Source: a virus | Direction: 5' to 3' (one strand) | Virus record (IMG/VR): IMGVR_UViG_3300042876_000267 | Span: 1 to 47,977 of that record | DNA length: 47,977 nucleotides | Part shown: in pieces, positions 4,663 through 15,463 of the stretch | How positions within the stretch are numbered: position 1 is the first letter of the stretch | Layout: each line of letters begins with the position of its first letter | Position numbers and translations under genes: made by a program | Notes under the pieces: model-generated | Told to the model about the DNA's origin: nothing | The model's input: only the letters and a program-made list of their open reading frames with translations | Database searches by the model: none

Positions 4663-4824
4663 ATGGCCCGCCCCGTCGTCACCGGCCTCGGCCGCCGCCT
4701 CCCGATGCCCCGCAGCTTCGCCACGTTGAAGGGCAACGAGGCGTACCGGGTGGAGATCAGCGGGAACGCGCCGGAGCGCATCGAGATCCAGTACGTCCTC
4801 GAGCCGGAGAAAAGCAATGGCTAG
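4663..4824 (+). CDS. Small hypothetical protein (53 aa)
   Basis: ATG to TAG gives MARPVVTGLGRRLPMPRSFA... ending EPEKSNG. It follows a start-associated element at a 15-nt gap and overlaps the next gene (ATG 4817) by 8 nt, the compact packing seen throughout the late region. No family recognised. Confidence 0.6.
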   Translation: MARPVVTGLGRRLPMPRSFATLKGNEAYRVEISGNAPERIEIQYVLEPEKSNG

Positions 4825-5320
4825 GAAGTACACCAGGGATAACCGGGGCAGGTTCGCCAGCACGGGGGCAACCGCTAGAGGCGGGAGGCTCAAGACCGCA
4901 AGCGGGAATAAACGCAAGACGCAGACGATGAAGGCGGCAGGCGCTGGCGGGGCTGGCGTGATGAAGGGCGCCGTTAAGCGAAACCCGGGGGCGATGGCCA
5001 AACGCACTAGCGAGGCCATGAAGCCTGCGCCTGCGACGCCCATTGGGCGGAGCACTGGTCAACTACGAGGATTCAACCTGAACGGTGGTTCGTCAAATCC
5101 GTTTGCCCTTACGTCGGCAAATCCCCCCGCGTTCTTTGGCAACAAGAAAGCCGCTGCGGCTTTTGCCAAGAAGGCCGGTTGGAACGCTAAGGACGCGATG
5201 CCGGCAGCTAGCCGAATGTTTGACGGCTGGATTATTGGCCAGCAAACAGGCGTCAACTCCTGGCGCGTTTTGGCCAAGCGAGGTGGGTTCATTGATGGCC
5301 CTAGTCCCGGGTGGTACTAA
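4817..5320 (+). CDS. Basic head-module protein with RGRF tag (paralogue 1)
   Basis: A 167-residue protein starting MARKYTRDNRGRFASTG. The Y-x-RD-x-RGRF tag recurs at the N-terminus of two more genes nearby (6876, 7239). After a Lys/Gly-rich low-complexity stretch (residues 20-75) there is a folded-looking C-terminus rich in Trp and Gly (GWIIGQQTGVNSWRVLAKRG). It lies directly before the portal. I infer an internal virion or head-assembly protein; an RD-x-GRF element occurs near the ends of many phage head-associated proteins. Confidence 0.75.
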   Translation: MARKYTRDNRGRFASTGATARGGRLKTASGNKRKTQTMKAAGAGGAGVMKGAVKRNPGAMAKRTSEAMKPAPATPIGRSTGQLRGFNLNGGSSNPFALTSANPPAFFGNKKAAAAFAKKAGWNAKDAMPAASRMFDGWIIGQQTGVNSWRVLAKRGGFIDGPSPGWY

Positions 5321-5340: not shown

Positions 5341-6873
5341 ATGACGTATTCCTACGGCACGGACAAGGCCCGCATCCAGGCCAACATCACCACGGCCCGC
5401 ACCCTTGAGGTCTGGCAGCCGGGGCAGGTGTGGGAGCGCATGGCCCCACGCTGGGAGCTGCCCGAGGCCCTGGCCGCTGGCACGATCTACCTGCAGCAGC
5501 AGGGTGAGCGGTGGCTGCCTAGGGAGCCTGAGGAGCAGGATGCCTCCTATGCCGTGCGGCTGGGCAACAGCATGTGCCCGCCGTACATGCTGCGGCTTGA
5601 GAACATGCTGGCGGGCCTGCTGTGCCGTCAGGCCATCCGGCTGGAAGACGTGCCCGACAACGTGCGGGAGCAGCTATTCAACGTTGACCTGCAGGGCAAT
5701 GACTTGGATGCGTGGATGTACCAGCAGGCCAAGTTAATGATCAGGTATGGCCATATCGGCACGCTGGTGGACATGCCCCGCGATAGTGAGGACGAGGACA
5801 ACCGGCCCTACTGGATCGGCTACACGCCCCGCGACATCCTGGGGTGGCGCACGGCCGTAGAAGGTGGCAGCCAGCGCATCACCGAGCTGCGCCTGCGGGA
5901 GGAGATCGTCCTGCCCTATGACCCCAGCGATGGGGTGGCATCGGCACGCTACGGGGAGGAGGCCGTGACCCAGATCAGGGTGCTGCGGCCCGGCAGCTTT
6001 GAGCTATGGCGCAGCAAGGGAGGGCGCACCCTCGACTTTGACATGGTGGATTCTGGCCCCACCACTCTGCAACAGATCCCCTTTGCCGTTGCGTATGCCA
6101 ATCGCGTGGGCCTGCTGGAGAGCGTCCCGGCGCTTGAGGAGGTGGCATGGCTGAACCTTGCGGCCTACCGGCGGACCAGCGACCTGGCGAACCAGCTCCA
6201 CATCGCGGCGGTGCCCAAGCTGTTCATCAAGGGCCTGCCCGGTGAGCCCGACAAGATCGACGGAGGCCCCAGCTTCGCCACGGCCATCCCGCTGGATGCA
6301 GAGCCCATCTACGTGGAGCCCCAAGGCACCAGCTACGCCTACCAGTTTCAGCATCTGGAGCTGCTGGAGAAGCAAATCAAGGAGCTGGGCCTCGCCACCG
6401 TCCACGGTGAAAAGGCCGTGGCCGAGAGTGGCCAGTCGAAGGAGATCAGCCGCAGCCAAGGCGACGGCACCCTGATGTCCATCGCCCTGCAACTGCAGGA
6501 CATGATCGATTCTGCCCTCCGGTTCCACGGCGAGTACCTGGGCCTGGCGCCTGACGCGGTCGGCCGGTGCATGGTCAACACCGAGTTCACTGAGGTTACG
6601 CTGGATGCCACCGTTGGCAAGTTCCTCCACGAGCTGCGGACGGCAGGCGACATCACCCAGGAGACCATGCTGATCAGCCTCGCCGCACGCAAGTGTTTTT
6701 ATGATGATTTCGATGTTGATCGTGAATTAGAGGAGACCGCGCAGCAGCAGGCCGAGATGCAGGCGCAGCGGGAGAAGGAGCTGAAAATGATGATGGAGGC
6801 TCAGCTCCCAGCAGCAGGTGGGAAGCCGCCAGCAGTTGGCCAACCTAGGCCGACGCCTGCACCCCCTGTCTGA
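5341..6873 (+). CDS. Portal protein (DUF4055-like)
   Basis: A 510-residue protein of portal size between the terminase and scaffold/capsid genes. The N-terminal region (Y-x(3)-RLGNSMCPPYMLRLENMLAG, then a long helical middle with RYGHIGTLVDMP) fits the DUF4055 portal group. The C-terminus is a Gln/Glu-rich helix ending in a Pro tail. Portals form the dodecameric vertex through which DNA is pumped and to which the tail attaches. The 3' end contains the start-associated element used by the next gene. Confidence 0.85.
   Translation: MTYSYGTDKARIQANITTARTLEVWQPGQVWERMAPRWELPEALAAGTIYLQQQGERWLPREPEEQDASYAVRLGNSMCPPYMLRLENMLAGLLCRQAIRLEDVPDNVREQLFNVDLQGNDLDAWMYQQAKLMIRYGHIGTLVDMPRDSEDEDNRPYWIGYTPRDILGWRTAVEGGSQRITELRLREEIVLPYDPSDGVASARYGEEAVTQIRVLRPGSFELWRSKGGRTLDFDMVDSGPTTLQQIPFAVAYANRVGLLESVPALEEVAWLNLAAYRRTSDLANQLHIAAVPKLFIKGLPGEPDKIDGGPSFATAIPLDAEPIYVEPQGTSYAYQFQHLELLEKQIKELGLATVHGEKAVAESGQSKEISRSQGDGTLMSIALQLQDMIDSALRFHGEYLGLAPDAVGRCMVNTEFTEVTLDATVGKFLHELRTAGDITQETMLISLAARKCFYDDFDVDRELEETAQQQAEMQAQREKELKMMMEAQLPAAGGKPPAVGQPRPTPAPPV
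6838..6851 (+). promoter_or_regulatory. Start-associated element inside portal 3' end
   Basis: GGCCAACCTAGGCC, with one extra C, lies in the last codons of the portal gene, 24 nt before ATG 6876. Its presence inside coding sequence suggests selection for the element itself. Confidence 0.6.
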
Positions 6874-6875
6874 TC

Positions 6876-7211
6876 ATGGCCCGTCGATATAGCCGCGATG
6901 CACGCGGCCGCTTCTCTGGTGGCGGCAGCGGAACTGCACCGCGCACGATGAAAACCAAGCTCGCCCGCACGGTGGCGCCGCAGGGGACGATCTCAAAGCG
7001 CAAGGCCAGCCGTGACGCCAACCGTGAGGCATACAAAGGCAAGGAGGAGATTGGCAACGTGGGGCCTTGGATCCTTCGCCAGCGCCCCCGCAGGCTTCCT
7101 GGCGGCCCCTTGGCCCCTGCCAAGTTGCGAGGCAATGCAGATGGCACCGCGAGCCCGATTGCAGCAGCAGGGAAACGGCGAAGGGGCGCCAGAACGCGGC
7201 GGGCAACCTAA
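6876..7211 (+). CDS. Basic head-module protein with RGRF tag (paralogue 2)
   Basis: A 111-residue, strongly basic protein starting MARRYSRDARGRFSGGGSGT. It shares the Y-x-RD-x-RGRF tag with genes 4817 and 7239; the rest is Arg/Lys/Gly-rich (KRKASRDANREAYKGKEEIG) and ends KRRRGARTRRAT. Probably a DNA-binding internal capsid protein; this is inference from charge, tag and location. The next gene's element (7202-7214) overlaps its stop. Confidence 0.7.
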   Translation: MARRYSRDARGRFSGGGSGTAPRTMKTKLARTVAPQGTISKRKASRDANREAYKGKEEIGNVGPWILRQRPRRLPGGPLAPAKLRGNADGTASPIAAAGKRRRGARTRRAT

Positions 7212-7214
7212 GGC
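7202..7214 (+). promoter_or_regulatory. Start-associated element (GGCAACCTAAGGC)
   Basis: Overlaps the stop of the 6876 gene and lies 24 nt before the ATG at 7239, the same spacing as the 6838 copy. Confidence 0.65.
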
Positions 7215-7238
7215 AACTCCCCAAGCCCCTGTCTAGTC

Positions 7239-7958
7239 ATGGCCCGCAACTACAAACGAGACGCACGAGGACGCTTTGCAAGTGGTGGCGGGTCGTCTGG
7301 TGGTGGCGGGAAGAAGGCTGCCGGCAAGCCCAAGGTCACGGGTAAGGGCGCCGGAATGGGCGGCACAAAAAAGGGGCCTAATCTAAACCGCGACATTGGG
7401 CAAACGTCTAACCCTCGCGGCACTGTGGCGGCAGGATCTTTTAACAACCGCTCCAAGGTCAACAACAGGATCAAGTCCACCAGCCCGGCCAACGCATCCG
7501 GTAGAGAGCGCAGGCAGGAAGCACGTATTCTCGGTCAAGGCGCCGGTACCACCGTCAGACCTGCAGCGCCAAGGGCTGGCAAGGAAGTTGCGCCAAAAGC
7601 AAGGGCCAACGCCAAGCCCAGCGCGAAGAAGATGCCAAAAGCAACCAAGGCAAACGTAACCAAGAAAACCAAAAAGGTTTTCGGTGAGATCAACGCCAAG
7701 CGCGAGGCAATCCGGCAAGCTGACCCAGGCTCTAAAGGTCTTAAAAACCAAGCCATGAGCAAAAAGGCAGAGGCCGCCTTTGCCAAAACCAAGGAAGGGA
7801 AGCGGGAGAAGGCCCTTGGCCGCATGATGTTCAACCGCGAGCAAAACCGCGAGGCGACCATGTCAAGCGGCAGCGGTAACAAGGCGAAGCGTCGCGCCAA
7901 GGCGATGGGGCTCAAAATCACCAAAAGCCGCCCCAGCAGCAATAAGCGGGGAAAGTAG
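7239..7958 (+). CDS. Lys-rich RGRF-tagged protein; zero-frame product of a frameshift gene
   Basis: A 239-residue, extremely basic protein (MARNYKRDARGRFASGGGSS..., then many KK/AK/RA repeats, histone-like in composition). It is the third carrier of the N-terminal Y-x-RD-x-RGRF tag. Its last codons are CGG GGA AAG TAG, placing a canonical slippery heptamer immediately before the stop. The predicted -1 product adds about 177 residues. Its position among portal, scaffold and capsid genes and its charge suggest a DNA-condensing or packaged internal head protein; no database family is recognised. Confidence 0.8.
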   Translation: MARNYKRDARGRFASGGGSSGGGGKKAAGKPKVTGKGAGMGGTKKGPNLNRDIGQTSNPRGTVAAGSFNNRSKVNNRIKSTSPANASGRERRQEARILGQGAGTTVRPAAPRAGKEVAPKARANAKPSAKKMPKATKANVTKKTKKVFGEINAKREAIRQADPGSKGLKNQAMSKKAEAAFAKTKEGKREKALGRMMFNREQNREATMSSGSGNKAKRRAKAMGLKITKSRPSSNKRGK

Positions 7959-7980
7959 CGGCGGTCCCGGCACCCTCGGG
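7949..7980 (+). other. Programmed -1 ribosomal frameshift signal (GGGAAAG + stop + GC stem)
   Basis: G GGA AAG at 7949-7955 is in the X-XXY-YYZ register relative to the 7239 frame and is followed directly by TAG (7956-7958). Seven bases further on, CCCG (7966-7969) can pair with CGGG (7977-7980). Slippage gives GGG AAA GTA GCG..., which stays open to 8488. The GGGAAAG heptamer is the one known from lambda gene G/T frameshifting. Confidence 0.75.
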
Positions 7981-8488
7981 CGCAGCAAACAGCATCCGCC
8001 CTACTGGCCGCCCGGGGCCGCGCAACAGCATCCGTCCCTACCGCCCGGCAACGCCGCGTGGTCGTGACCTACAGATCGACCGCCAGGCAAGGGCAGGCAT
8101 TGAGCGCATCAAAGACGCTGGCCAGAAGCTGCGCGATGGCGTCAGCAAGGCGATGCCAAAGCTGAACAAGCTGAAGATGAAGCTCCAGCGCGACAATGCC
8201 CGCGCCATCATCGACCGTGGCAAGAAAGGTATTGATGGGGAGCTTGCCCGGATCGAGCTGAACACCATCGGCGGGAACATGGGCCGCAAAGCCATTCAAC
8301 GCAGGCTTGCCCGTGCGGCAGAGGGCGTCAAGCGCGGCAGCAAGGTGGCGCAGAAGGCGCAGGGCATCTACATGAACCAGCTTGCAGGAGGCTGGCCGAA
8401 GGGGCCTAGCAAGGGGAAGAACAACGTGACGCCAGGGCCACGGAGTAAGGAAAAGCCGCCGAAGCGTAAGCGGAAGAAGAAGCCGTAG
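7955..8488 (+). CDS. -1 frame extension of the 7239 gene
   Basis: The -1 frame from 7955 is open to the TAG at 8486-8488 and encodes about 177 residues. It has two similar repeats (NSIRPTGRPGPR and NSIRPYRPATPR), then helical, highly basic sequence ending KRKRKKKP. No ATG, GTG or TTG occurs in this frame before ATG 8153, yet residues coded from 7979 onward look as protein-like as those after it. So it is best read as the C-terminal part of a 416-residue fusion. An internal start at ATG 8153 (111 aa) is the alternative. Confidence 0.7.
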   Translation, partial: VAAVPAPSGAANSIRPTGRPGPRNSIRPYRPATPRGRDLQIDRQARAGIERIKDAGQKLRDGVSKAMPKLNKLKMKLQRDNARAIIDRGKKGIDGELARIELNTIGGNMGRKAIQRRLARAAEGVKRGSKVAQKAQGIYMNQLAGGWPKGPSKGKNNVTPGPRSKEKPPKRKRKKKP

Positions 8489-8525: not shown

Positions 8526-9218
8526 ATGCCCCCCGAAGATCAGGAATTGACGGCCCCTGCTGTGTCGGCAGAAGAGGCGCGGGCAGAGGTCGAGCGTCTG
8601 CGGGCGAAGAACAAGGAGCTGCTGGATGAGAAGGCCAAGCTGAAGGACAAGGTGAAGGCCATCCCTGATGGGGTGGATGTTGCCGAGCTGCTGCGGTTCA
8701 AGGAGGAGACCGAGCGGCAAAAGCTGGAGAGTAAGGGGGACTACGACAAGGCCCGCCAGCAACTGCAGGAGCAGTACGACCGTGACATCAAGGCCCGTGA
8801 TGCGCGGATTGCTGAGCTGGAAGCCAAGGTGCGCGACTTTGAGCTGATCACCCCTGCCGCGTCGGTGCTGGCCCAGGTGGTGCATGAGCCGCAAGACGTG
8901 TTCGCCACAGGGAGGCTGAAGCCCGAGATGATTGAGCCTGGCGATGATGGCCCGGTGGTGGTTGAGGGGCTGGCAAGGGTGCCGCTGGCCGAGTGGGCAA
9001 AGCAGAAGCTCCCGGCCTACATGCTGAAGGCACCGAAGCCGCAGGGTACCGGCGCACCGGCAGGTGGCAGCGGCAGCGTGCCTGGCGACATGGTGGCAGG
9101 GCAGAAGAACCCGTTTACGCGGGAGCACTTCAACCTCTCGGAGCAGCAGCGCATCTTCGTGAGCAACCCGGCGCTTTACCAACAGCTCAAGGCCGCCGCC
9201 GCGTCCGTCGCACGATGA
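8526..9218 (+). CDS. Capsid scaffolding protein
   Basis: A 230-residue protein immediately before the major capsid gene, the canonical scaffold position. Residues 15-110 are a long charged coiled coil (EEARAEVERLRAKNKELLDE onwards). The C-terminal half is less structured, with a final helix. Scaffolds direct assembly of the procapsid and are then lost. No protease motif is visible, so a separate or host protease, or release without cleavage, is implied. Confidence 0.8.
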   Translation: MPPEDQELTAPAVSAEEARAEVERLRAKNKELLDEKAKLKDKVKAIPDGVDVAELLRFKEETERQKLESKGDYDKARQQLQEQYDRDIKARDARIAELEAKVRDFELITPAASVLAQVVHEPQDVFATGRLKPEMIEPGDDGPVVVEGLARVPLAEWAKQKLPAYMLKAPKPQGTGAPAGGSGSVPGDMVAGQKNPFTREHFNLSEQQRIFVSNPALYQQLKAAAASVAR

Positions 9219-9318: not shown

Positions 9319-10404
9319 ATGGCCTTTCTGTATCGGTCTGATACTCAGATCCTCAACCCGTTCAGTGAGTACATCTCTGAACAGACCACCCTTCGTTCCC
9401 GCTTCATCACCTCCGGCCTCGTTGACACCAGCCCGGTGATCACCGAGAACATCCGCAAGGGCGACACTTTCCAGATCCCCAACTGGGCCGCCAACCTTCA
9501 AGGCGCCGTGCAGGTGCCTCAGGAAGGCGTGATGCTGGACGTCAACAAGCTGGGTTCCAACATCCAGCGTGGCGTCGTGCATCACCGGGCCAATGCTTGG
9601 GGCGCCTCCGAGCTGGCCAAGCTCGCTGTTGGTGCTGCCAACGACCCCATGGCCGCCATCGGCGCCAAGGTGGCCGACTGGGTGGCCAATAGCCAGCAGG
9701 CTGACCTTCTCGCCACCCTGCGGGGCCTCTACGGCATCCCTGGCACTTCGGTGTCCGGCTATGCCATGGCCAGCATGGTGATCGACGGTGGCGGCTCTGG
9801 TGAAACCGACTTCAGCGTGTCCCACGTCGTCCGTGGTGACCTGCGCCTCGGGGAGGATGCTGATGCCTACGGCATCCTGATCATCCATCCAGATGTCAAC
9901 GCCTTCCTGAAGATCAGGGAGATGATCAACTACGTCCGCGCTGGTGAGCTTCCTGGCATCACCGCCTCCACCATCGCTGCCGGCAGCATCACTGCTTCCA
10001 ATGCGGTGTTTGGTGACAGCTCCGGCCAGTTCGAGACCAACGACAAGCTGGTTCCGACCTTTGCTGGCAAGCGGGTGATCGTTTCGGATGATGCCCCTCG
10101 GACCGGCTCGCCCGGTTCCTACCGGTACATGAGTTATCTGGCCAAGCCCGGTGCCATCGGCCTCGGCTTCCAGGCTCCTGTCCGTACCGAGTCGGACCGG
10201 GACATCCTGACCAGCGGCGGTGAGGACGTGCTCAAGGTTCAGTGGGACTGCTGCATGCACCTGCTGGGCTCCAACTATGCCGGCCCGACCGGCAGCGGCG
10301 TCCCGACTGCCACTGAGCTGGCAGCCTCTACCAGTTGGACCAAGGTGTTCAACGACAAGAACATCCCCATGGTTGGGATCGTTCACACCTGCCCCGTTTT
10401 CTGA
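9319..10404 (+). CDS. Major capsid protein (HK97 fold)
   Basis: A 361-residue coat protein. N-terminal arm and E-loop residues (TLRSRFITSGLVDTSPVITE) are followed by the P-domain segment YGILIIHPDVNAFLKIREMI and the A-domain region GKRVIVSDDAPRTGSPGSYR. This pattern and length are typical of phage coat proteins of the group with YG-(I/L)-L-(I/V)-H-P-D-V. It follows the scaffold and precedes small beta-rich head proteins. No N-terminal delta domain is evident, matching the use of a separate scaffold. Confidence 0.9.
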   Translation: MAFLYRSDTQILNPFSEYISEQTTLRSRFITSGLVDTSPVITENIRKGDTFQIPNWAANLQGAVQVPQEGVMLDVNKLGSNIQRGVVHHRANAWGASELAKLAVGAANDPMAAIGAKVADWVANSQQADLLATLRGLYGIPGTSVSGYAMASMVIDGGGSGETDFSVSHVVRGDLRLGEDADAYGILIIHPDVNAFLKIREMINYVRAGELPGITASTIAAGSITASNAVFGDSSGQFETNDKLVPTFAGKRVIVSDDAPRTGSPGSYRYMSYLAKPGAIGLGFQAPVRTESDRDILTSGGEDVLKVQWDCCMHLLGSNYAGPTGSGVPTATELAASTSWTKVFNDKNIPMVGIVHTCPVF

Positions 10405-14639: not shown

Positions 14640-15071
14640 CTAGAGCCTTGCGGTGTTCTGGAGCCTGCGCCACTCGCGGGCGAAGAAGGTACCAATGGGC
14701 AGGGCGTCTAGGGCTGGCTTGATCCAGTCGCGTGGAGGGTATGCCTTCCCCGGGATGCCCTGGTAGATGTAGCCCGCGTAGGTGACGCCACCACTGCCGC
14801 CCCACTCGAAACGGATGGTCGTGAGGTTGATGCGGCGGCGACGCTGCGAGCGCAGGAAAGCGCCTGTGTCCACGATGTCGCGGGGGCTGGTGACGGTCTC
14901 CCCGTTGCGGCGGCGCGTCTCACCGGGCCAGGTGTAGCGCTCTGTGCGGATCTCCTCCTTGAGCTGCTGGTCGAGGGCCTTGCCGTAAGCCGTCATGATG
15001 GCAGGCACGCGGCGGATCAGATCCTCGTTGCGGAGGCTGCTCAGCCTAAGGCGCGACTGAACAAAGCTCAT
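14640..15071 (-). CDS. Tail/connector protein (HK97 gp10-like), reversed
   Basis: A 143-residue protein on the minus strand. The pattern PRDIVDTGAFLRSQRR, then FEWGGSGGVTYAGYIYQGIP and YPPRDWIKPALDALP recalls HK97 gp10-type tail-completion proteins (...YA-x-(Y/I)-x-x-G...PRPW-x-x-AL). It overlaps the preceding minus-strand gene by ATGA and converges with the tail tube gene with a 2-nt gap. Its inversion relative to neighbouring late genes is unusual; it needs its own start signal, provided by the 15464-15476 element. Confidence 0.65.
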   Translation of the reverse strand: MSFVQSRLRLSSLRNEDLIRRVPAIMTAYGKALDQQLKEEIRTERYTWPGETRRRNGETVTSPRDIVDTGAFLRSQRRRRINLTTIRFEWGGSGGVTYAGYIYQGIPGKAYPPRDWIKPALDALPIGTFFAREWRRLQNTARL

Positions 15072-15463
15072 CGCTGGCGGTAGCGGATCACGCGCAGCTC
15101 ATCGCCTAGCACGCTGCGGAGGGTGCCGCCGATGAGGCCGGTGTTGCCGAAGCTGCCGCCGATCTCGGAGACCACGCAGGGTTGCGAGGCTTCACCGCCC
15201 CAGGTCAGGGTGCCCCGGATGCCGCGCTTGACGCGAGCATCAACGGCGGCAGGGTTGACGGCATAACCAGCGAGCACGTCCCCGTCTACGTCAACGCCTG
15301 GGAGGTCGTTGGGGGTGAAGGTGCTGCGCTTGAGGTAGAGCTGAACGGTGACAGTTTCGGTCGCGGGGGTGACGTTACCGGTGGCAGGATCTGTAACCGT
15401 GCCAACAGTGGGGACCGTGAAAACGGCCGTGGCATTGGCGATCCCGACGAGTGCGCTGCTCAT
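15068..15463 (-). CDS. Putative head-tail joining protein, reversed
   Basis: A 131-residue beta-rich protein (MSSALVGIANATAVFTVPTV...) with a short C-terminal RYRQR. Paired by ATGA overlap with the gp10-like gene, so probably a head-tail stopper or joining component of the same interface. Its ATG abuts a start-associated element on the minus strand. The functional call rests on size and pairing. Confidence 0.55.
   Translation of the reverse strand: MSSALVGIANATAVFTVPTVGTVTDPATGNVTPATETVTVQLYLKRSTFTPNDLPGVDVDGDVLAGYAVNPAAVDARVKRGIRGTLTWGGEASQPCVVSEIGGSFGNTGLIGGTLRSVLGDELRVIRYRQR

Follow-up and report, generated by a model that had tools for sequence, protein, structure and literature searches.

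Does the gene at 7239–8488 of the viral DNA analysed here (IMG/VR record IMGVR_UViG_3300042876_000267, the whole stretch of 47,977 nucleotides being termed the window) encode one protein, two separate proteins, or two proteins that share a start? Its first reading frame ends in a stop codon, behind which a second frame continues in the −1 register. From the reading frames and from comparison with relatives, we consider it highly probable (roughly 0.9) that two proteins with the same start would be made from this gene, through a −1 slip on the heptamer G_GGA_AAG.

Putative slip site and reading frames in the window

The 3' end of the open reading frame (ORF) 7239–7958 reads CGG GGA AAG TAG with the heptamer in frame, and thus G GGA AAG directly precedes the TAG (7949–7958), as the original prediction had stated. 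The −1 frame opens at 7946, behind a TAA, and ends at 8488. Since this TAA closes it just before the slip site, the frame cannot be entered earlier. It is devoid of ATG, GTG and TTG before 8153 and has a further ATG at 8177, which agrees with the predicted 177 open residues and a start-free stretch of about 200 nt. The predicted product lengths of 239 and 416 residues match the reading frames as well. Moreover, the gene does lie between portal and scaffold, being flanked by matches to phrog_145 and phrog_206. A portal, scaffold or minor head protein gene adjoins it in the window and in the contigs L002, L100, L124 and L138. The coordinates of all features are collected in Table 1.

Table 1. 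Features of the tagged gene and its surroundings (window coordinates unless a contig is named).
Feature	Position	Strand	Remarks
Portal	5341–6873		phrog_145, E 2.5e-93
N-terminal tag MARNYKRDARGRFASGG	7239–7289	+	also on genes 4817 and 6876 of the same phage and on nearly all family members
Zero-frame ORF, 239 aa, pI 11.9	7239–7958	+	tag plus variable basic segment; putative short product
TAA shutting the −1 frame just 5' of the slip site	7943–7945	+	
Slippery heptamer G_GGA_AAG	7949–7955	+	final two codons ahead of the stop; same in L002 at 6004–6010
−1 frame read after the putative slip	7955–8488	+	177 codons plus stop, predicted 416-aa product; dN/dS 0.25 in the first 66 codons, 0.21 thereafter
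Zero-frame stop TAG	7956–7958	+	kept in L002
Weak hairpin, possible stimulator	7966–7980	+	stability not above shuffles
NSIRPTGRPGPRNSIRPYRPAT motif	7988–8053	+	−1 frame, precedes any start codon; by alignment within a single ORF in L138, L139, L113 and others
Conserved helical C-terminal domain, Lys/Arg tail at its end	8090–8485	+	AlphaFold2 mean pLDDT 70, all helix
First ATG of the −1 frame	8153–8155	+	not conserved (AAG in L002)
Scaffold	8526–9218		phrog_206, E 2e-26
Major head protein	9319–10404		phrog_247
Double junction, L115	3333–1017	reverse	two A_AAA_AAG + TAG sites, open −1 frame after each
Double junction, L117	5537–8012		two A_AAA_AAG + TAG sites, open −1 frame after each

The heptamer alone is common, GGGAAAG occurring 8 times in the window against 5.9 copies expected. 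Of the 199 ORFs that reach 80 aa on either strand of the window, only 7239–7958 carries a heptamer of the type X_XXY_YYZ (with Y being A or T) no more than three codons from its stop. None of 40 random Markov sequences of equal length and dinucleotide composition combined a heptamer so placed with a −1 frame that extends over 177 codons or more and lacks start codons for 60. The short GC stem that had been predicted behind the heptamer is present in the predicted fold as a 5-bp hairpin (7966–7970 paired with 7976–7980), but the region downstream is no more stable than shuffled sequences (z +0.43 for 95 nt, z −0.69 for 50 nt). The 4-bp core of the hairpin, CCCG/CGGG, also occurs in L002, the predicted fold of which differs. 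Because the heptamer by itself is not rare and the downstream fold is no better than shuffled ones, the case for frameshifting rests on comparison.

Relatives with and without a putative shift

The only close relative that was found is L002, an IMG/VR contig with the same arrangement, whose portal and major head protein are 88% and 98% identical to those of the window. Its tagged ORF likewise ends with CGG GGA AAG TAG, and its −1 frame is 84% identical to that of the window over 179 residues. Conservation of the heptamer and the downstream frame, which the original prediction had proposed to check, is thus seen in L002, together with that of the stop. The zero-frame ORFs of window (239 aa) and L002 (124 aa) have the tag in common and are not convincingly alignable in the remainder, whereas the DNA flanking the unalignable middle segment is 82–86% identical. 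The similarity of the DNA ends at 7324 and restarts at 7944, five bases 5' of the heptamer, which means that a wholly different middle segment was exchanged while frame, heptamer and stop were kept. Over the first 66 post-slip codons the comparison with L002 gives a dN/dS of 0.25 in the −1 frame, versus 2.7 and 1.3 in the other two frames, and the substitutions are distributed 5/8/18 over codon positions 1/2/3. For the remainder of the −1 frame dN/dS is 0.21. By this measure the 66 codons ahead of any start evolve as protein in the −1 frame only, which bears out the earlier impression that this frame looks coding.

A family search with conserved C-terminal residues, followed by a degenerate DNA pattern, recovered about 30 further loci. 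Three of the four contigs found with the exact pattern GGGGAAAGTAGCGGCGG are chance matches, and an IMG/VR search with the zero-frame protein alone gave no relatives. In the majority of the approximately 30 loci, including L098/L099, L100, L103, L113, L124, L126, L127, L138, L139, L141 and others, tag, middle segment and C-terminal domain are fused in one unbroken ORF. The peptide that would follow the slip in the window, NSIRPTGRPGPRNSIRPYRPAT, aligns for example with NGIRPTGRPGPRNSIRRYNPAT inside the single ORF of L138. Because it aligns inside one-frame ORFs, the alignment shows the −1 frame of the window to encode the latter half of a protein for which other phages would need no shift. All forms of the family have a pI near 12 and contain 23–28% Lys plus Arg.

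In a second clade (L101, L104, L119, L144) the tagged frame is followed by the C-terminal domain in its −1 register, and the site is A_AAA_AAG CGG TAG; in L144 the codon preceding the slip site is CCA instead of GCA. L136 has the same junction as L101, its sequence being cut before the tag. At least seven contigs of this clade have the alternative heptamer at the corresponding place. A GGCCGG/CCGGCC stem begins 5–6 nt past the heptamer in the clade of L101, with z values from −2.9 to +0.4 in GC-rich sequence. Of the predicted stems, only that of the A_AAA_AAG clade looks convincing, that of the window being weak. In a tree of the C-terminal domain, window and L002 are placed among fused members and the second clade elsewhere, and its strongly supported branches require that the state changed, from split to fused or the reverse, at least twice. 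Either direction, gain or loss of the shift, would be compatible with this tree alone. Both G_GGA_AAG and A_AAA_AAG have been reported to be highly shift-prone in E. coli (PMC5009743).

The gene of the second clade lies between terminase and portal on the opposite strand, which weakens a simple head-operon reading. In L101, L104, L115, L117, L119 and L144 the tagged gene runs opposite to terminase, portal and scaffold, its end coinciding with, or lying close to, that of the terminase gene on the opposite strand.

Two contigs, L115 and L117, have two slip junctions in series with all frames open. The tagged ORF runs for 354 or 440 codons to the first slip and ends with A_AAA_AAG CGA TAG or CGG TAG. 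The first −1 frame is open for 228 or 195 codons, its middle differing between the two phages. The second site reads A_AAA_AAG CGG TAG, and its −1 frame reaches the C-terminal domain. Two successive −1 shifts would apparently yield three nested proteins here. We know of no phage example of serial frameshifts from a limited search of the literature. In some retroviruses serial frameshifts are known (PMC5009743).

Some loci do not fit. In L090, an assembly from a cyanobacterium, tag and C-terminal domain are in the same frame, separated by a TAA at 1262–1264 with an ATG at 1328. Readthrough, a start codon of the domain's own or an error in the sequence would have to account for this arrangement, which neither type of slip would explain. 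The region 1–2400 of L090 carries two consecutive tagged genes ahead of the portal, the one split by the TAA being the first. In L128 and L134 the A_AAA_AAG site is kept, and altered sequence behind it places the C-terminal domain in the +1 frame (6337–6480 in L128). As judged from the frames, the domain is beyond the reach of one −1 shift, and these are possibly decayed copies. Finally, L011 lacks a tagged gene in the interval from portal to scaffold and retains an ATG-led remnant of about 60 aa, in which some 45 residues of the region are kept.

Proposed mechanism and alternative explanations

According to the proposed mechanism the majority of ribosomes would halt at the TAG (7956–7958) and release the tagged, very basic protein of 239 aa. 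A fraction would slip by −1 on G_GGA_AAG, the tRNA-Gly moving from GGA to GGG and the tRNA-Lys from AAG to AAA; both tRNAs could re-pair, and the adjoining stop may lengthen the pause. Shifted ribosomes would read 177 codons more, resulting in a 416-aa protein with the conserved helical, basic C-terminal domain. The N-terminal tag would direct the protein to the head, the middle segment would be exchangeable, and frameshifting would set the number of copies that carry the C-terminal domain. The sequences themselves show the layout of the frames, the selection on the new frame, the conserved junction, the homology to one-frame fusions and the different site of the other clade; that slipping occurs, its rate and the role of the protein we infer.

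The comparative data strongly support programmed −1 frameshifting as the reading that fits all of them best, because the junction is kept in L002, protein-type selection acts ahead of any start, one-frame homologues extend across the junction and the other clade has a −1 site of its own. Two separate proteins, with the C-terminal domain made from an internal start (ATG 8153, ATG 8177 or a non-standard codon) and reinitiation after the TAG, could draw on the ATG codons that are indeed present at 8153 and 8177, on L090, where the domain sits behind an in-frame TAA with an ATG further on, and on the ATG-led remnant in L011. This explanation is improbable. Selection of the protein type acts, in the −1 frame, on the 66 codons ahead of 8153, whose homologues form the middle of one-frame fusions, and the other clade has its first start codon 34 codons past the slip, behind conserved coding sequence. 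A separate start at 8153 is itself unlikely because the ATG is not conserved, being replaced by AAG in L002. A normal start codon in the second frame of relatives, which the original prediction had named as evidence against frameshifting, was found in the L011 remnant only and not in the other relatives.

We give still less weight to transcriptional slippage, in which RNA polymerase would gain or lose a base at a run so that some mRNAs are in the other frame. The six-A run in the second clade speaks for it, but the run in the window is only GGGG AAA, known sites of this type being generally longer homopolymers. The sites also agree to the base with the X_XXY_YYZ frame of ribosomal slipping, and the stop follows either directly or after a single codon. 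Least probable of all is an assembly error or a pseudogene, that is, a once-fused gene broken by the loss or gain of a base. Such a break might be suspected in a metagenomic sequence, most relatives of which are fused in one frame. Against it, break and heptamer are common to two independent contigs at 84% protein identity, selection persists on either side of the break, and at least seven contigs of the second clade have another heptamer at the corresponding place.

Known systems, likely role and gene neighbourhood

The slippery heptamer of lambda G/GT is GGGAAAG. The window resembles this system in the type of heptamer, in the −1 shift and in the predicted short and long forms with a common N-terminus. 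A tail chaperone of the lambda type was rejected as a candidate: the product matches no PHROG family significantly, and no chaperone, and its gene lies between those of portal and scaffold instead of ahead of the tape measure. The second clade shares the A_AAA_AAG site with E. coli dnaX, a bacterial polymerase gene. In dnaX the shift leads to early termination, whereas in the second clade it would give the longer product.

The original prediction had not recognised any frameshift in such a head protein. This does not hold in general, since frameshifted coat-protein genes are known from T7/T3 (gene 10), Lactobacillus phage A2 and the Listeria phages PSA, A118 and A500 (PMC5009743). As in these, the window has a head-module gene, a shift near the end of the zero frame and a longer form with a C-terminal addition. 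There, the protein is a coat protein, often extended by an Ig-like domain; the window, in contrast, has a tagged protein of pI 12 that belongs to no known family and whose extension of 177 codons is helical and basic, and relatives of the window fuse the parts in one frame, unlike the coat genes. A zero-frame product that is the major coat protein, as in T7 or A2, was rejected, the major head protein being the separate phrog_247 gene (Table 1). The mechanism is thus old; the gene family, its repeated use of the shift and the double site appear to be new.

Neither of the two parts, nor any fused form, had a relative among the 50,697 phage records searched. In the cyanophages with the nearest portals (KBS-S-2A, S-H1 and MED4-184) unrelated genes follow the portal. 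Among cyanobacterial genomes (390 of the class of the L090 genome and 400 of the family, partly overlapping) the only match was in L090's own genome. Pfam and PHROG scans of the family gave nothing convincing, an AlphaFold2 model of the C-terminal domain (pLDDT 70, pTM 0.43) had no PDB or BFVD match better than E 0.5, and a literature search for cyanophage frameshifts yielded nothing relevant. The virus of the window probably infects photosynthetic bacteria.

The product of the gene likely acts in the head as an internal or assembly protein associated with DNA, and a tagged internal head protein is probably its function. Because of its position, extreme basicity, shared tag and exchangeable middle, we liken this role to that of the internal proteins of T4, whose sole common element is a capsid targeting sequence and whose lysines contact packaged DNA (PMC3012670). 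Both are diverse proteins of one phage group with only a short N-terminal sequence in common. The likeness, on the side of the window the shared tag and the basic composition, is one of design and not of descent, and no frameshift is involved in T4. By analogy with T4, the exchangeable middle may carry diverse functions. Tentatively, and with the odds in our view rather against it, the tagged proteins of these loci could form an undescribed family that binds DNA inside the head. Their middles would be swapped between phages like cassettes, their slip-plus-stop joints would have arisen repeatedly and even have been duplicated, and a single gene would yield two nested proteins or, via two −1 shifts, three, in set ratios.

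With these loci, the small set of head-region genes that use programmed frameshifting would gain a new protein family. They also offer a natural experiment, in which the same long protein is encoded in a single frame, through a lambda-type or a dnaX-type site, and apparently through two serial sites. One can thus ask what purpose the frameshift serves, be it to fix a ratio, to tolerate the exchange of modules or to repair indels neutrally. Moreover, a tagged set of head-region proteins in probable cyanophages becomes testable.

Three genes of the window (4817–5320, 6876–7211 and 7239–7958) share the tag start MARxYxRDxRGRF. Both 7196–7324 and the portal end plus the start of gene 6876 match L002 5595–5730, as if a block of portal end and tag had been duplicated in the window. 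Further downstream, at 14640–15463, two ORFs that resemble connector or tail-completion genes are on the minus strand amid tail genes on the plus strand. In L138 a sigma-factor-like gene (1591–2517; phrog_351, E 2e-17) is located between terminase and portal.
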